Shown: positions 15,162 through 34,088 of the stretch, one piece after another
Position numbering within the stretch: position 1 is the stretch's first letter
Layout: every line of letters starts with the position of its first letter
NCBI GenBank assembly: GCA_019186965.1
Contig: JABARV010000017.1
Span: 1 to 64,000 of the forward strand
Origin: Turneriella sp.
GTDB taxonomy: Bacteria > Spirochaetota > Leptospiria > Turneriellales > Turneriellaceae
Direction of reading: 5' to 3'
DNA: 64,000 nucleotides
Translations under genes and position numbers: made by a program
Notes under the pieces: model-generated
Seen by the model: the letters and a program-made list of their open reading frames with translations, nothing else
The model's database searches: none
Told to the model about the DNA's origin: nothing

Positions 15162-15206
15162 AAATAAATTGCTTGAGCCTCGTTGAAATTTACCCGATGT
15201 ACAACC

Positions 15207-15995
15207 ATGCGGCGTAATCTTACTTTAATAAGAGAGCTACGTAGCCGTTTTGTAACGCTTACCCAAGAGAACAACGTTGTCGCGCTTAAAACGGGTACCG
15301 AAGTCGAAGATATGGACATCGACGAAATCGCGCTTTTGCGCGAAATTATTCCTGATTTTTCGCTAACCGTTAAAATAGGCGGACCCGAAGCGCGGCGCGA
15401 CATGCGCGAGTGTTTAAGCGTGGGGGTTAACGTACTCTTGGCTCCCATGGTCGAGTCGGTGTACTCGCTTATCAATTTTGTTGAAACAGCCGAATCGATT
15501 ATGCGCGAGACGGGAAAATTTGCAAGGCTTGCGATGAATTTAGAAACCGCAACTGCGCTCCACCAGCTCGACGCCATGATTGCAACCAAAGCTTTTGCCT
15601 CTTTAAGCCAAGTGACGATTGGCCGAGGCGACTTATCCAAAAGCATGAATTTATGCGTCGACGACGAAGAAGTGCTTACACTCACGCGCAACGTTCTCAT
15701 AAAGCTTGCACGGCAAAATAAGCTTACCTCGGTAGGCGGAGGCCTAAGCGTACATAATATTAGCGTTATGTCGGAAGTTTTGCCTGCGAACCGTTTTAAT
15801 ACACGGCACATTGTTTTTGACAACAACGAACAGTTTGCGCAAAATGCGTCGGTAAATCTTTCCGAAGGCCTCTATTTTGAGCAGGCGCTTTACGAAGCTT
15901 TAGCAGAGATGAATCCTATCCGTACAAGTTTTTATAAAGAACGCAACCGGCAATTGGAAGAAAGGCTTCCCCGTTTGAAAGCGGCACACAAATAG
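15207..15995 (+). CDS. HpcH/HpaI aldolase or citrate-lyase-like protein
   Basis: A TIM-barrel protein of about 262 residues. ALKTGTEVEDMDIDEI, the IGGPEARRDM segment, LLAPMVES and MNLETATALHQLDAM match the aldolase/citrate lyase superfamily, in which a Glu and an Asp bind magnesium and cleave or form CoA thioesters or 2-keto acids. The true substrate cannot be named. The ATG at 15207 is preferred to a TTG eight codons earlier. The gene follows thrB after 45 bases. Downstream, from 16025, is the 59-bp repeat. Confidence 0.78.
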   Translation: MRRNLTLIRELRSRFVTLTQENNVVALKTGTEVEDMDIDEIALLREIIPDFSLTVKIGGPEARRDMRECLSVGVNVLLAPMVESVYSLINFVETAESIMRETGKFARLAMNLETATALHQLDAMIATKAFASLSQVTIGRGDLSKSMNLCVDDEEVLTLTRNVLIKLARQNKLTSVGGGLSVHNISVMSEVLPANRFNTRHIVFDNNEQFAQNASVNLSEGLYFEQALYEALAEMNPIRTSFYKERNRQLEERLPRLKAAHK

Positions 15996-16024
15996 ACTTC
16001 GTGGGCGTGCGCTGCGCATACAAA

Positions 16025-16181
16025 GGACATCCGTGTCCGTAGAAAACCAAAGCACCTCGTGTGGTATAGGTTTTCTACATGGAGGACATCCGTGTCCGTA
16101 GAAAACCAAAGCACCTCGTGTGGTATAGGTTTTCTACACGGAGGACATCCGTGTCCGTAGAAAACCAAAGCACCTCGTGTG
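16025..16181 (+). repeat. 59-bp tandem repeat carrying a ribosome binding site and GTG start
   Basis: Two complete copies (16025-16083, 16084-16142) and a third partial copy (16143-16181) are nearly identical. Each copy contains GGACATCCGTG, and the second and third are preceded by GGA, so that GGAGGA stands five bases before a GTG. The third copy is the real translation start of the downstream oxidoreductase. Each complete copy also holds the inverted pair GTAGAAAACC and GGTTTTCTAC, spaced by about 20 bases, so it can fold into a hairpin. The unit length is not a multiple of three, so starts in different copies lie in different frames. Confidence 0.95.
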
Positions 16182-17224
16182 CTATTGCAGGTGGGGGGTA
16201 CGCTGGGCTTGCAACCGCGATTGAACTCCACAGGTATGCGCCGCATATACGTGTAACACTTTTTGATAAAAGAAAAAACCACCAAAAATTAACACAGTGG
16301 CATAAACTTGCACGGGGGAAAAATATAAAAGATTTTGAAGTCCCTTTCCAAAGCCTCGCACAACGCTTTAAGTTTACTTTTGTCCAACAAGATATCGATT
16401 TGGATAAACTTCTCCAAAAACCGCACGAGACACTCTTACGAAAATTCGACGCTGTTGTCGTTGCACAAGGCTCCCTTTCGCCACACACGATGCCTGGGGT
16501 GGTGACTCTCGATATGCTAAGAGACGACCCAAATGCCATCGCTAAGGTGCGTACAATCGAAAAAGAACATATTGCAGTTGTTGGCGCAGGCCCCACGGGA
16601 GTTCAATTTGCGTTCGAGCTTGCCGCACGAGGGAATAAGGTTGAGCTCATCGAAGCACAAGATAGGGTATTGCCTTCTTTTGACGCTTCTGTGGGGGAGT
16701 GCGCGGTTAAAGAAGCGCAAAAACAAAATATTACATTGCACTTAAATACAGAATTTATCCGGTTTGAAAAGCCAGAACTTATTTTGCGCAAAGGAAACGA
16801 AACAGCGCGCAGCACAGCAGATTACGTACTTTTTGTTCCTGGTGTGCGTGCAAATCCCGCTTTTAATTGTGATCTTTACGGGCGTATTACTGAAATTTCT
16901 GGAGAAAGGCCAGAGTGTCTTTTTTATGCAGCAGGGGACAATAGCTATTTTAGTGGGCGTGGACTTAACGCCAAAAGCGCTCAGGCAGCAGTGCGAAAAG
17001 GGCAAGCTGTCGCTCGAACTTTAGCCGCTGATTTATCGGGAAAAGCCGCACCAGAATACGTATACCAAGAGCTGGGGTATTTCGTATCGTTAGGCCCTAA
17101 AAATGCTGTAGGGTATTTACTCTCGCAAAAAAGCGCATTTTCGGGTAGGGGCGCCCTTTTTATGAAAGAAGCTGTAGAAAAACAATACGACCTTTATTTA
17201 AACGGTTTACCTGTTTACTTATAA
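16151..17224 (+). CDS. FAD-dependent pyridine nucleotide-disulfide-type oxidoreductase (NDH-2/FSP1-like)
   Basis: The 357-residue protein has two dinucleotide-binding motifs: AIAGGGYAGLATAIELHR at the N-terminus for FAD and AVVGAGPTGVQFAFELAARG near residue 140 for NAD(P)H. LFYAAGDN near residue 258 binds the FAD ribityl chain. There is no CxxC redox pair, which fits type II NADH:quinone dehydrogenase or FSP1-like enzymes rather than disulfide reductases. The GTG at 16151 is chosen because GGAGGA lies five bases ahead; an ATG at 16079 in the same frame would add a tail coded by the tandem repeat. The 3' end overlaps the convergent gene by ten bases. Confidence 0.85.
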   Translation: MSVENQSTSCAIAGGGYAGLATAIELHRYAPHIRVTLFDKRKNHQKLTQWHKLARGKNIKDFEVPFQSLAQRFKFTFVQQDIDLDKLLQKPHETLLRKFDAVVVAQGSLSPHTMPGVVTLDMLRDDPNAIAKVRTIEKEHIAVVGAGPTGVQFAFELAARGNKVELIEAQDRVLPSFDASVGECAVKEAQKQNITLHLNTEFIRFEKPELILRKGNETARSTADYVLFVPGVRANPAFNCDLYGRITEISGERPECLFYAAGDNSYFSGRGLNAKSAQAAVRKGQAVARTLAADLSGKAAPEYVYQELGYFVSLGPKNAVGYLLSQKSAFSGRGALFMKEAVEKQYDLYLNGLPVYL

Positions 17225-30940: not shown

Positions 30941-32833
30941 ATGCGCCATTTGCCTGATGTCTTCGCGTTTGCATCTACAAATTTTCCCGAACAGGGGTTT
31001 TATTCAAAAGACTCGCATAAATTTTTCAAGAAAACACTGTTTAGTACCCTCCACGAAACAGCAGAGCGTTTTGCTAATTACCTTATCCAAAATGCTGCTT
31101 TAAAGCGTGGTGAGAATGTAGCACTTTTTGGAGACAATTCTGCCGAATGGCTCATTGCAGACATGGCAATCCAAAACGCGGGAGCTGTCGTTGTTCCGCG
31201 GGGTTCGGATTCTACACCACAGGAACTCGAATTTATTTTAGAACATTCAGAGGCTAAAATTGTATTTATTGAGCACCTAAGGCTTTACAAAAAAATTAGC
31301 GCACTTCTTAAAAAACGTGGCGCACGTGTTTTTGTACTCGATCCCTTGTTTCCGGAAAAAATTGCACAGGAAGATAATTTTCAAATACTTCCACACCTAC
31401 TCAAGTCGATTCCAGCCTTAAAGGTCGAAGAGCTACAAAACCTAAAAAAAATTCGAGAGGACATTAAACCATCAGACCTTTTTACAATAATTTATACATC
31501 GGGAACAACGGGAGAACCTAAAGGCGTTATGCTTTCGCATTCAAACATGATGTACCAGCTTGAAGTTGTTCCTAAGGCGCTTTCGATGGCCACGCAAGAC
31601 CGCATTCTTTCGATTTTACCTGTGTGGCATATTTTTGAACGCTTTATGCTCTATAGCGCTATTCGTGCAGGGGCGCATTACTACTATTCGTCGAAGAAAG
31701 ATTTAATGGAAGACTTTATCCGCATAAAGCCCACGCTTATGGCCTCCGCGCCGCGCCTTTGGGAGCAAATTTACCAAAAGTTGCGCGAACAAATTGACAA
31801 GACAGAAGCGTTTAACCGTGAACTCTTTGATCTCTCGTACAACATAAAACAGCGGCTTTCGCGGGCGCAAAATTTACTCCATGGCCAAAGTGACGCAGTC
31901 GGTGCAAAAAATTTTTTCCAAAACACTTGGGATTTTTTTAAAGCAGGATGGACGGTGTTTTCTCTCAAATTACCCGATATTTACATGGATTCCATTTTCT
32001 TGACGCGTGTGCGTGCGATGTTGGGCGGCGAGCTACGTGGAACAATTTCGGGCGGTGGAGCTCTTCCTTTCCATATTGACGAATTTTACAACGCGATTGG
32101 TATACCCGTTTACGAAGGTTATGGAATGACCGAAACTTCACCCCTTATCGCAATGCGCACCGAAGGAAAAATTGTTATGGGCACAGTAGGAGAAGTCCCT
32201 TTAGGCACGCATGTTGAAATTCGTGACGAAGACGGTAAGCGTGTGCTTCCTTCGGGGGAGCAAGGAGTAATTTTTGTAAAGGGTCCTGGGGTAATGCAAG
32301 GATATTTCAAGAACGAAGAAGCGACGCGTAAAATTTTACAAAACGGTTGGCTCAATACGGGCGATATTGGCGTTTTTACGCAGAGTGGACAACTTGCTAT
32401 CCGTGGCCGTGCAAAAGACACTATTGTACTTCGCTCGGGAGAAAATTTAGAACCTGTACCTATAGAGACCTTGCTTTCACAACACCCACTTATAGAACAA
32501 GCGGTTGTGGTTGGCCAAGACCAAAAAAATTTAGGAGTCCTTATTTGGCCAGACTACGACAAGCTTGTAGATGCAGGATACGATGTGCGCGAATTTGATT
32601 TAGCAAACGATTTAAATAAAATCCCAGAGTTAATCCAAGTTTTTAAAGAAATAGCAGGTACACTAGTTAAGGAAGAAAATGGTTTTAAAAGTTACGAGCG
32701 TATTTCGCATGTGCGTTTTTTGCCGCAGAAAATGCTTGTAGGCGATGAACTCACCGCGCTCATTAAAATTAAGCGCAATGTTGTATATAAAAAATACAAA
32801 GCACTCATCGAAGATATGTTTAAAGGAACGTAG
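30941..32833 (+). CDS. AMP-binding acyl-CoA synthetase (long-chain type)
   Basis: The protein of about 630 residues activates a fatty acid with ATP and CoA. The AMP-binding signature TIIYTSGTTGEPKGVMLSH lies near residue 184, VYEGYGMTETSPLIA near residue 390 and LNTGDIGVFTQSGQLAIRGR near residue 473, all in the expected order, and a Lys-containing C-terminal domain follows. The ATG at 30941 fits the family N-terminus (LPDVFAFA); one at 30875 would add 22 residues. The enzyme is membrane associated by analogy with FadD-type proteins. The gene precedes the biotin cluster and may be part of the same transcript. Confidence 0.88.
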   Translation: MRHLPDVFAFASTNFPEQGFYSKDSHKFFKKTLFSTLHETAERFANYLIQNAALKRGENVALFGDNSAEWLIADMAIQNAGAVVVPRGSDSTPQELEFILEHSEAKIVFIEHLRLYKKISALLKKRGARVFVLDPLFPEKIAQEDNFQILPHLLKSIPALKVEELQNLKKIREDIKPSDLFTIIYTSGTTGEPKGVMLSHSNMMYQLEVVPKALSMATQDRILSILPVWHIFERFMLYSAIRAGAHYYYSSKKDLMEDFIRIKPTLMASAPRLWEQIYQKLREQIDKTEAFNRELFDLSYNIKQRLSRAQNLLHGQSDAVGAKNFFQNTWDFFKAGWTVFSLKLPDIYMDSIFLTRVRAMLGGELRGTISGGGALPFHIDEFYNAIGIPVYEGYGMTETSPLIAMRTEGKIVMGTVGEVPLGTHVEIRDEDGKRVLPSGEQGVIFVKGPGVMQGYFKNEEATRKILQNGWLNTGDIGVFTQSGQLAIRGRAKDTIVLRSGENLEPVPIETLLSQHPLIEQAVVVGQDQKNLGVLIWPDYDKLVDAGYDVREFDLANDLNKIPELIQVFKEIAGTLVKEENGFKSYERISHVRFLPQKMLVGDELTALIKIKRNVVYKKYKALIEDMFKGT

Positions 32834-32864
32834 AAAATACTATAGGGAAGAAGCAGGACTATTT

Positions 32865-34088
32865 ATGGTAATTGAGAGAAAAAAAGTTTTAGTAGAAACT
32901 CCCGACCATTGGAAAATTGCATTGTATAAGTATACTTCGGCTACGCTCAGTACAAGTACTTCGGCTACGCACTCGAAGCGAGAGAGCAATGCTCACGATA
33001 CAAGTCCCTCGGCTGCGCACTCGAAGCGAGAGAGCAATGCTCACGGTACAAGTACTTCGGCTACGCACTCGAAGCGAGAGAGCAATGTTCACGGTACAAG
33101 TACCTCGACTGTGCACTCGAAGCGAGAGAGCAATGTTCACGGTACAAGTATTTCGGCTACACTTAATACAGCTGGAGAACGTGGTACAGCCGCGAAACAT
33201 AAATATCCTGTTTTGCTCTTACACGGCATTGCCTCAAACCACAGGGTGTGGGATTTTGGTATTCCCGAATTTAGCTTTGCGCACTATTTAGTCCAAAACG
33301 GCTACTTGGTGTATTCCCTCGATTTGCGTGGCCGTGCAGGAAGCGATGGCCCCCACACGGGCAGGGGAAATAAGTGGTCGGTAGACGATTATCTTTTATG
33401 CGATTTACCTACCGCTTGTGAATATATTTTAGAAGATAGTGGCGCACAAAAGTTGCATTGGGTGGGGCACAGTATGGGAGGAATTTTAGGCTTCTTCTAC
33501 CAAATTCGGCATAAAGCGGCAAACCTGCAAAGTTTTACGACGTTTGCTTCTGCGCTTAATTACACCTATTCTACAATTAACCATTTTCGCACTTGGCTCG
33601 ATTACATGAGCGCGTTACAGTATTTTCCTATTAAAGAATTTTGGAGTCCAATGCAACCTTTTGCAGGGCTTAATACCGTGTGGAATAGATTTTTGTGGAA
33701 TCCAGAGAATATGCGGGAAGATATCGGAAAAAAAATTATTGGAGAAATGATTGAGCCTATCGCTGTAAACGAGTGGAACCAAATAAAACTTATTTCTGCT
33801 GCAGAGGGAATGCCGCGTCTTTCGGGAGGCTTTCCACACCTTGCAAGCGACCGCCGTATCCAAGTACCGGTACTTATGCTCGCAGGCGATCGTGATTGGC
33901 TTTGCGCGTTAGATGGGGTAGAATGGACAATGGATGAACTTTCGTGTGAAAAAAAATTGATGGTTTTTGGTAAGGAATACGGTAGTAAGTCGCACTATGG
34001 ACACATGGATCTTGTGTGTGGAATAACCGCACCGAGAGAGGTGTGGCCCAAGGCGCTTACTTGGATAGACAGGTTCGACAGGGTTTAA
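32865..34088 (+). CDS. Alpha/beta hydrolase with in-frame tandem repeats, upstream of bioF
   Basis: A protein of about 407 residues. Residues 1-29 and from about 100 onwards form an alpha/beta hydrolase: LLLHGIASNHRVWD, the nucleophile elbow GHSMGG, the acid segment MLAGDRDWL and a C-terminal HYGHMD histidine. Between them about 70 residues are coded by a 16-residue repeat (TSTSATHSKRESNAHG) in four copies, which must form a flexible surface loop before the first strand. Start ATG 32865 has AGGA upstream. It ends 18 bases before bioF, and could be the esterase that frees pimeloyl-ACP in biotin synthesis (BioH-type role), which is otherwise not seen; this is inference. Confidence 0.8.
   Translation: MVIERKKVLVETPDHWKIALYKYTSATLSTSTSATHSKRESNAHDTSPSAAHSKRESNAHGTSTSATHSKRESNVHGTSTSTVHSKRESNVHGTSISATLNTAGERGTAAKHKYPVLLLHGIASNHRVWDFGIPEFSFAHYLVQNGYLVYSLDLRGRAGSDGPHTGRGNKWSVDDYLLCDLPTACEYILEDSGAQKLHWVGHSMGGILGFFYQIRHKAANLQSFTTFASALNYTYSTINHFRTWLDYMSALQYFPIKEFWSPMQPFAGLNTVWNRFLWNPENMREDIGKKIIGEMIEPIAVNEWNQIKLISAAEGMPRLSGGFPHLASDRRIQVPVLMLAGDRDWLCALDGVEWTMDELSCEKKLMVFGKEYGSKSHYGHMDLVCGITAPREVWPKALTWIDRFDRV
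32930..33163 (+). repeat. 48-bp tandem repeat inside the hydrolase gene
   Basis: Four complete 48-bp copies (32952-32999, 33000-33047, 33048-33095, 33096-33143) and partial copies on both sides (from about 32930, and 33144-33163). The unit is a multiple of three and stays in frame, coding TSTSATHSKRESNAHG with few substitutions. Each copy includes the imperfect palindrome CTTCGGCTACGCACTCGAAG. The partial copy at the left has CTTCGGCTACGCTCAGTAC, a slightly different end, which suggests expansion of a mobile short palindromic repeat. Confidence 0.95.

Follow-up and report, generated by a model that had tools for sequence, protein, structure and literature searches.

Palindromic elements occur at many loci in Rickettsia and Wolbachia, where they lie between genes as well as in frame inside them, and their orthologous sites have been compared (PMC2229807, PMC3767692). 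Other small bacterial repeats, Correia/NEMIS, ERIC and RUP, are sequence-conserved, about 100–200 bp long, and in most cases flanked by target duplications and bounded by terminal inverted repeats (PMC2229807). Hairpins of a different kind are the RNA sites of CsrA, which have the consensus RUACARGGAUGU with GGA in the hairpin loop (PMC8668096).

The window analyzed here is a 64,000-nucleotide stretch of DNA from Turneriella sp., a spirochaete. At positions 16024–16185 it holds a tandem array with a period of 59 bp, 2.7 copies and a 98% match (TRF). Repeat copies begin at 16024, 16083 and 16142 in a repeat search of the window. Copies 1 (16024–16082) and 2 (16083–16141) are full and differ by a single base, the first ending in ACATGG and the second in ACACGG. 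Copy 3 (16142–16185) is partial; its first 40 bases are identical, after which it runs into an oxidoreductase gene. Each unit contains GGA(GGA)CATCC-GTG. This confirms an earlier note on this DNA, which had described a 59-bp tandem repeat that multiplies a ribosome binding site (RBS) and a GTG start codon.

Viewed on the minus strand, each unit forms a pair of small hairpins whose loops are of the A(N)GGA type, and a stem of 7–10 bp encloses one of the pair. From sequence and folding, hairpin A (GGAC-ACGGAT-GTCC, minus strand) lies at 16025–16038, with GGA in its minus-strand loop, and recurs at 16084–16097 and 16143–16156. In the plus-strand reading, these bases make up the GGACATCC-GTG start signal. 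The outer stem arms, GTAGAAAACC and GGTTTTCTAC, span 16039–16078 in copy 1 and 16098–16137 in copy 2, and a lone arm is found at 16157–16166. Hairpin B (CAC-ACGAG-GTG, minus strand) has a weak 3-bp stem, lies at 16053–16063 by the same evidence, and recurs at 16112–16122 and 16171–16181. The pattern GTAGAAAACC-N20-GGTTTTCTAC is found at the two paired positions and at no other site in the 3.08-Mb genome, and the pattern read backwards gave 0 matches. The RNA of 15996–16200 folds at −77.1 kcal/mol (z = −3.55 against shuffles), which bears out the earlier proposal that the units form hairpins. A promoter and terminator scan placed the only promoter-like site of the plus strand at 15817, upstream of the array, and two terminator-like matches on the minus strand overlap the array.

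The array carries GTGs at 16033, 16092 and 16151, and among these three only 16151 opens the oxidoreductase gene (16151–17224, plus strand). Its 357-aa product is an NDH-2-like pyridine-nucleotide oxidoreductase (Pfam Pyr_redox_2, 6e-29). The likely start, GGAGGA, a spacer and GTG, comes from copy 3 (16140–16153, plus strand), as judged from the sequence and the N-termini of orthologues. The other two GTGs open plus-strand upstream ORFs of 22 codons, which encode the same peptide (VSVENQSTSCGIGFLHGGHPCP). ORF 1 (16033–16101) extends beyond the GTG at 16092 and ORF 2 (16092–16160) beyond that at 16151, so that their TAG stops (16099–16101 and 16158–16160) overlap the start region of the next unit. 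Alternative in-frame starts of the oxidoreductase are an ATG at 16079, unique because of the one-base difference between the full copies, and a GTG at 16118. The claim of a unit length indivisible by three, with upstream GTGs that open other frames, therefore holds for the 59-bp length and for 16033 and 16092, but not for 16118 and 16079, which are in frame. Gene calls were made with a simple in-house ORF caller.

Upstream lies an HpcH/HpaI-like protein gene (15183–15995, plus strand). The order of this gene and the oxidoreductase is kept in five congeners, with gaps of about 0–80 nt, and no array is found at the oxidoreductase orthologues of these five. Deleting both full copies would shrink the intergenic gap to about 38 nt in the window's species, which is represented by one genome. 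The conserved protein core (AIAGGGYAG...) starts at the end of copy 3. Therefore, both the start signal and about 10 N-terminal codons come from the array.

A previously unnamed family of hairpin inserts is present throughout the genome of this spirochaete. TRF was run on 1.57 Mb of the 3.08-Mb genome and on 400 kb from the congener G005. It returned 19 arrays with periods of 49–62 bp, and folding, read by eye, gave about 16 of the 19 a common architecture. Hairpin A has a stem of 4–6 bp and a loop such as AGGAT, ACGGAT or ACGAT. It is followed by a linker of 5–7 nt, often TCTTTG, and then by an outer stem of 7–10 bp around hairpin B, whose loop is ATGGAT, AGGAG, ACGAG or similar. Elsewhere in the genome, about 18 loci, most of them tandem, have the same architecture with other stems, as do many loci in each of the six congeners. 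Two counts are model-free. GGA/TCC loops occur in 26 of 44 array hairpins, against 1.9 expected and a maximum of 6 in 300 shuffles, and both GGA-type loops lie on one strand in 10 of the 11 arrays that have two.

In a plain MAFFT alignment of five gap-free 57-bp units, compensatory changes are seen in 13 of 17 pairs. A larger alignment of 24 units, among them those of the window's array, was fitted with the model, to which it is biased; it shows double changes in 15 of 17 pairs and 95.5% of cells paired (0/500 shuffles; 30–47% paired in slid controls). Covariation in this alignment is confined to the stems, and the loops do not covary. Stems differ between loci yet stay paired. Neutral decay after insertion does not account for this, which counts against an insertion reading unless the structure is under some selection or numerous lineages are active.

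A covariance model built without the window's array (R1) matches that array on the minus strand with 25.4 bits (E of 0.13 over 2 Mb and 0.022 over 0.34 Mb). A second model, R2, was built from the 24 rows; since the array is among these rows, its minus-strand matches at 16130–16182 (47.5 bits), 16071–16123 (38 bits) and, weakly, 16012–16064 (20.2 bits) are self-including. R2 has 35 matches in the window's own genome, 32 in G005 and 10–34 in the other congeners, six congeners in all, with best E-values of 1e-5 to 1e-12. Outside the genus, in a sample of the phylum, matches are scarce and weak. Three of these loci are true tandem arrays of the same plan, with units of 51 bp (G012), 55 bp (G016) and 60 bp (G057). 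Single matches in other Spirochaetota (L162–L174) have convincing stems but are not claimed here because they were selected by the model. Single double-hairpin matches among them include L163, L164, L166, L170, L171 and L174; the last four have the outer stem TGCCGC...GCGGC in common and differ in their hairpin stems.

As a sequence, the 59-bp unit has no other site in its own genome. It was found in none of the six congeners, none of 84,980 species genomes (from which records of or near the window's genome were possibly left out) and nowhere in a plasmid collection. Rfam gave no family above threshold for the window region, two other loci of the same genome and nine related loci, and a protein-level scan for related loci gave no relative. 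No identical element copies were seen at two loci. Likeness between loci at the sequence level is weak yet present, and the translation of a PEP carboxylase element has matches, in three genomes, among elements of other loci.

Arrays are found between genes, between tRNA genes, at gene starts, at gene ends and inside genes. They show no strand preference: among 21 cases within genes or overlapping a start, 10 have GGA on the sense strand and 11 on the antisense strand, the latter including the window's array, which is antisense to its operon. Placement inside genes is in frame. The period is divisible by three (57 or 54) in every one of the 12 in-gene arrays for which it was measured, compared with 3 of the 13 arrays in other positions (Fisher p = 1e-4). 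One array between two tRNA genes (G000:C2:1494-1810, L062; G000 is the window's species) has six 53-bp units with the GGA loops on the tRNA strand. Repeats of other kinds are also present in this genome. At 32950–33160 of the window, a 48-bp unit is repeated 4.4 times inside an ORF (32745–34088) that is alpha/beta-hydrolase-like by motifs, where it encodes HSKRESNAHGTSTSAT repeats. This array is palindromic, has no GGA loops and is perhaps a second type of in-frame insert. At G000:C1:192305-193315 (L044), several tandem repeats of other kinds are clustered, including a 142/279-bp unit.

Two sites vary between relatives. The PEP carboxylase gene of G005 (G005:C1:152803-155553; L083, L175) contains a 114-bp insert made of two 57-bp units, with NIGSRPAKRR on one side and the IDALRAIPWIFAWTQ motif on the other. 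The gene of G003 (L176) has one 57-bp unit at the same spot, with a changed stem that still pairs. The site is empty in G001 (L177) and in the window's species (L178), and the E. coli enzyme, whose structure is solved, has no insert. At the start of an MtaB-like gene, the window's species has an array of about 2.4 units, which is shorter or rearranged in G002, G004, G005 and G006 and absent in G001 and G003. At the MtaB-like starts (L202–L208), five species have the strongly conserved piece GTCCATCCAAGGACT.

Taken together, the array at the oxidoreductase gene is probably a member of a genus-wide family of small (53–62 bp) palindromic insertion elements that supplies a start signal incidentally. 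It is probably not a repeat with a purpose-built role as an expression switch at this gene. We propose that units would be inserted or inherited at gene boundaries and in frame within genes, in either orientation, and would expand or contract in tandem. A minus-orientation array lies at the 5′ end of the oxidoreductase gene, and because the complement of hairpin A is by chance a strong RBS and GTG, the last copy supplies these two and about the first 10 codons. The RBS appears to be a side effect of the hairpin sequence, and the signal would be repeated because the family is tandem by nature. The remaining copies would be passengers that create the overlapping 22-codon upstream ORFs, and any effect on translation of the oxidoreductase would be incidental. 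For the elements themselves, neither a transposase nor insertion chemistry was found, and there is no clear target duplication; that they move or are copied, and how, is inferred. Also counting against this reading is the window's hairpin B, which is weak (3 bp, with an ACGAG loop).

A more specific form of this reading is tentative, and we would sooner doubt it than adopt it. Here the family would be a mobile repeat defined by structure, a double hairpin of about 57 bp in which the loops and not the stems are recognized, by CsrA or by an enzyme that processes single-stranded DNA or RNA. It would have spread in tandem and in frame through spirochaete genes while its stems diversified by compensatory change. 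If so, the 51-, 55- and 60-bp arrays outside the genus would be members as well.

The array could instead be a translation tuner specific to this locus, with unit number setting oxidoreductase output through the RBS/GTG units, the upstream ORFs and the hairpins. The good RBS and GTG in every unit fit such a role, as do the upstream ORFs, whose ends reach a few bases past the next start in the manner of translationally coupled genes, and unit number does differ between species at related loci. Against this, the same type of array occurs in both orientations at many loci where neither a start codon nor an RBS is involved, and the orthologues of five congeners do without it. The ORF from the GTG at 16151 lies downstream of the full copies, and its frame is independent of unit number. 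Therefore, on/off switching by frame is impossible, and the anatomy of the array excludes it at this gene. Nor does folding give a regular trend in exposure of the start site. The unpaired probability of the Shine-Dalgarno sequence is 0.36, 0.32–0.51 and 0.59 for 1, 2 and 3 units, that of the start codon is 0.40, 0.05–0.09 and 0.13, and across 1–4 units the predicted accessibility of the last RBS has no consistent trend. We thus regard a locus-specific tuner as improbable, and the dedicated, phase-variation-like control suggested by the earlier note is unsupported, given units at unrelated loci, a frame independent of copy number and irregular accessibility. Tuning by copy number is possible, since the overlapping upstream ORFs could couple or compete in translation, but unsupported.

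Tandem hairpins with A(N)GGA loops could also be CsrA-binding RNA elements, acting as sponges or as sites in mRNA. The published consensus accommodates loops such as ACAGGATGT and ANGGAN, the genome encodes one CsrA, and the stems covary while the loops do not. Like CsrA/RsmA hairpins and the CsrB/RsmZ sponges, the elements combine an A(N)GGA loop with a short variable stem, several to a molecule. They differ in lying inside genes and without strand preference, the antisense array at the window's locus being included in the near-even sense and antisense counts, and in having several loops (ACGAG, ACGAT) that lack GGA. The lack of strand preference disfavors a role as RNA at most loci. Regulation by CsrA, our initial reading of the loops, was dropped because orientation is random, and we now hold it to be quite unlikely; by loop sequence, CsrA may still be an attractive candidate for the loop reader. 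A simple minisatellite, in which the gene start was duplicated locally by chance with the help of a quasi-palindrome, fits the genome-unique unit and its absence from the orthologous place in congeners, but is very hard to credit when the architecture, loops and covariation are common to many other arrays and R1 already matches the array. An integron attC origin was rejected on inspection, with neither fixed core sites nor gene cassettes present.

Among described systems, the insertion-element family most resembles the palindromic elements of Rickettsia and Wolbachia (RPE, WPE), with stable palindromic hairpins, many dispersed copies and in-frame sites in conserved protein genes. RPE, however, are about 100–150 bp, defined by sequence and found in alphaproteobacteria, whereas the units here are 53–62 bp, usually tandem, keep their loops while changing their stems, and belong to spirochaetes. 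By analogy the elements may work like RPE, but they are not classed as RPE since they have no sequence-conserved unit of 100–150 bp. Correia/NEMIS, ERIC and RUP are likewise small hairpin-folding repeats between and sometimes inside genes, and BOX is a further MITE-like bacterial repeat that is small and folds into hairpins. The sequence conservation, terminal repeats and duplications of Correia/NEMIS, ERIC and RUP have no counterpart in our family. The MIRU minisatellites of mycobacteria are tandem units of 50–100 bp in operon gaps, with small ORFs that overlap neighboring starts and stops; unlike the present family, their sequence is common to their loci. REP elements are also small dispersed hairpins, with a conserved foot in place of a conserved loop. 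Of the 7 genomes of the genus, 5 encode Y1 transposases, and two element-rich sister genomes, only 82–83% complete, show none. No R2 match was found around the Y1 transposase genes examined (L156–L161, L201), and with no element flanking these genes a REP/RAYT system was rejected.

The locus carries a caution, as a tandemly repeated RBS can be a side effect of an insert rather than a switch. Bacteria rarely have translated insertions in conserved enzymes, and the best-known cases are those of Rickettsia and Wolbachia. This spirochaete lineage, in which each genome has many and orthologous sites are empty, single or double, is a clean system in which to study how such inserts originate, why their stems covary, and how they are absorbed by proteins and gene starts.
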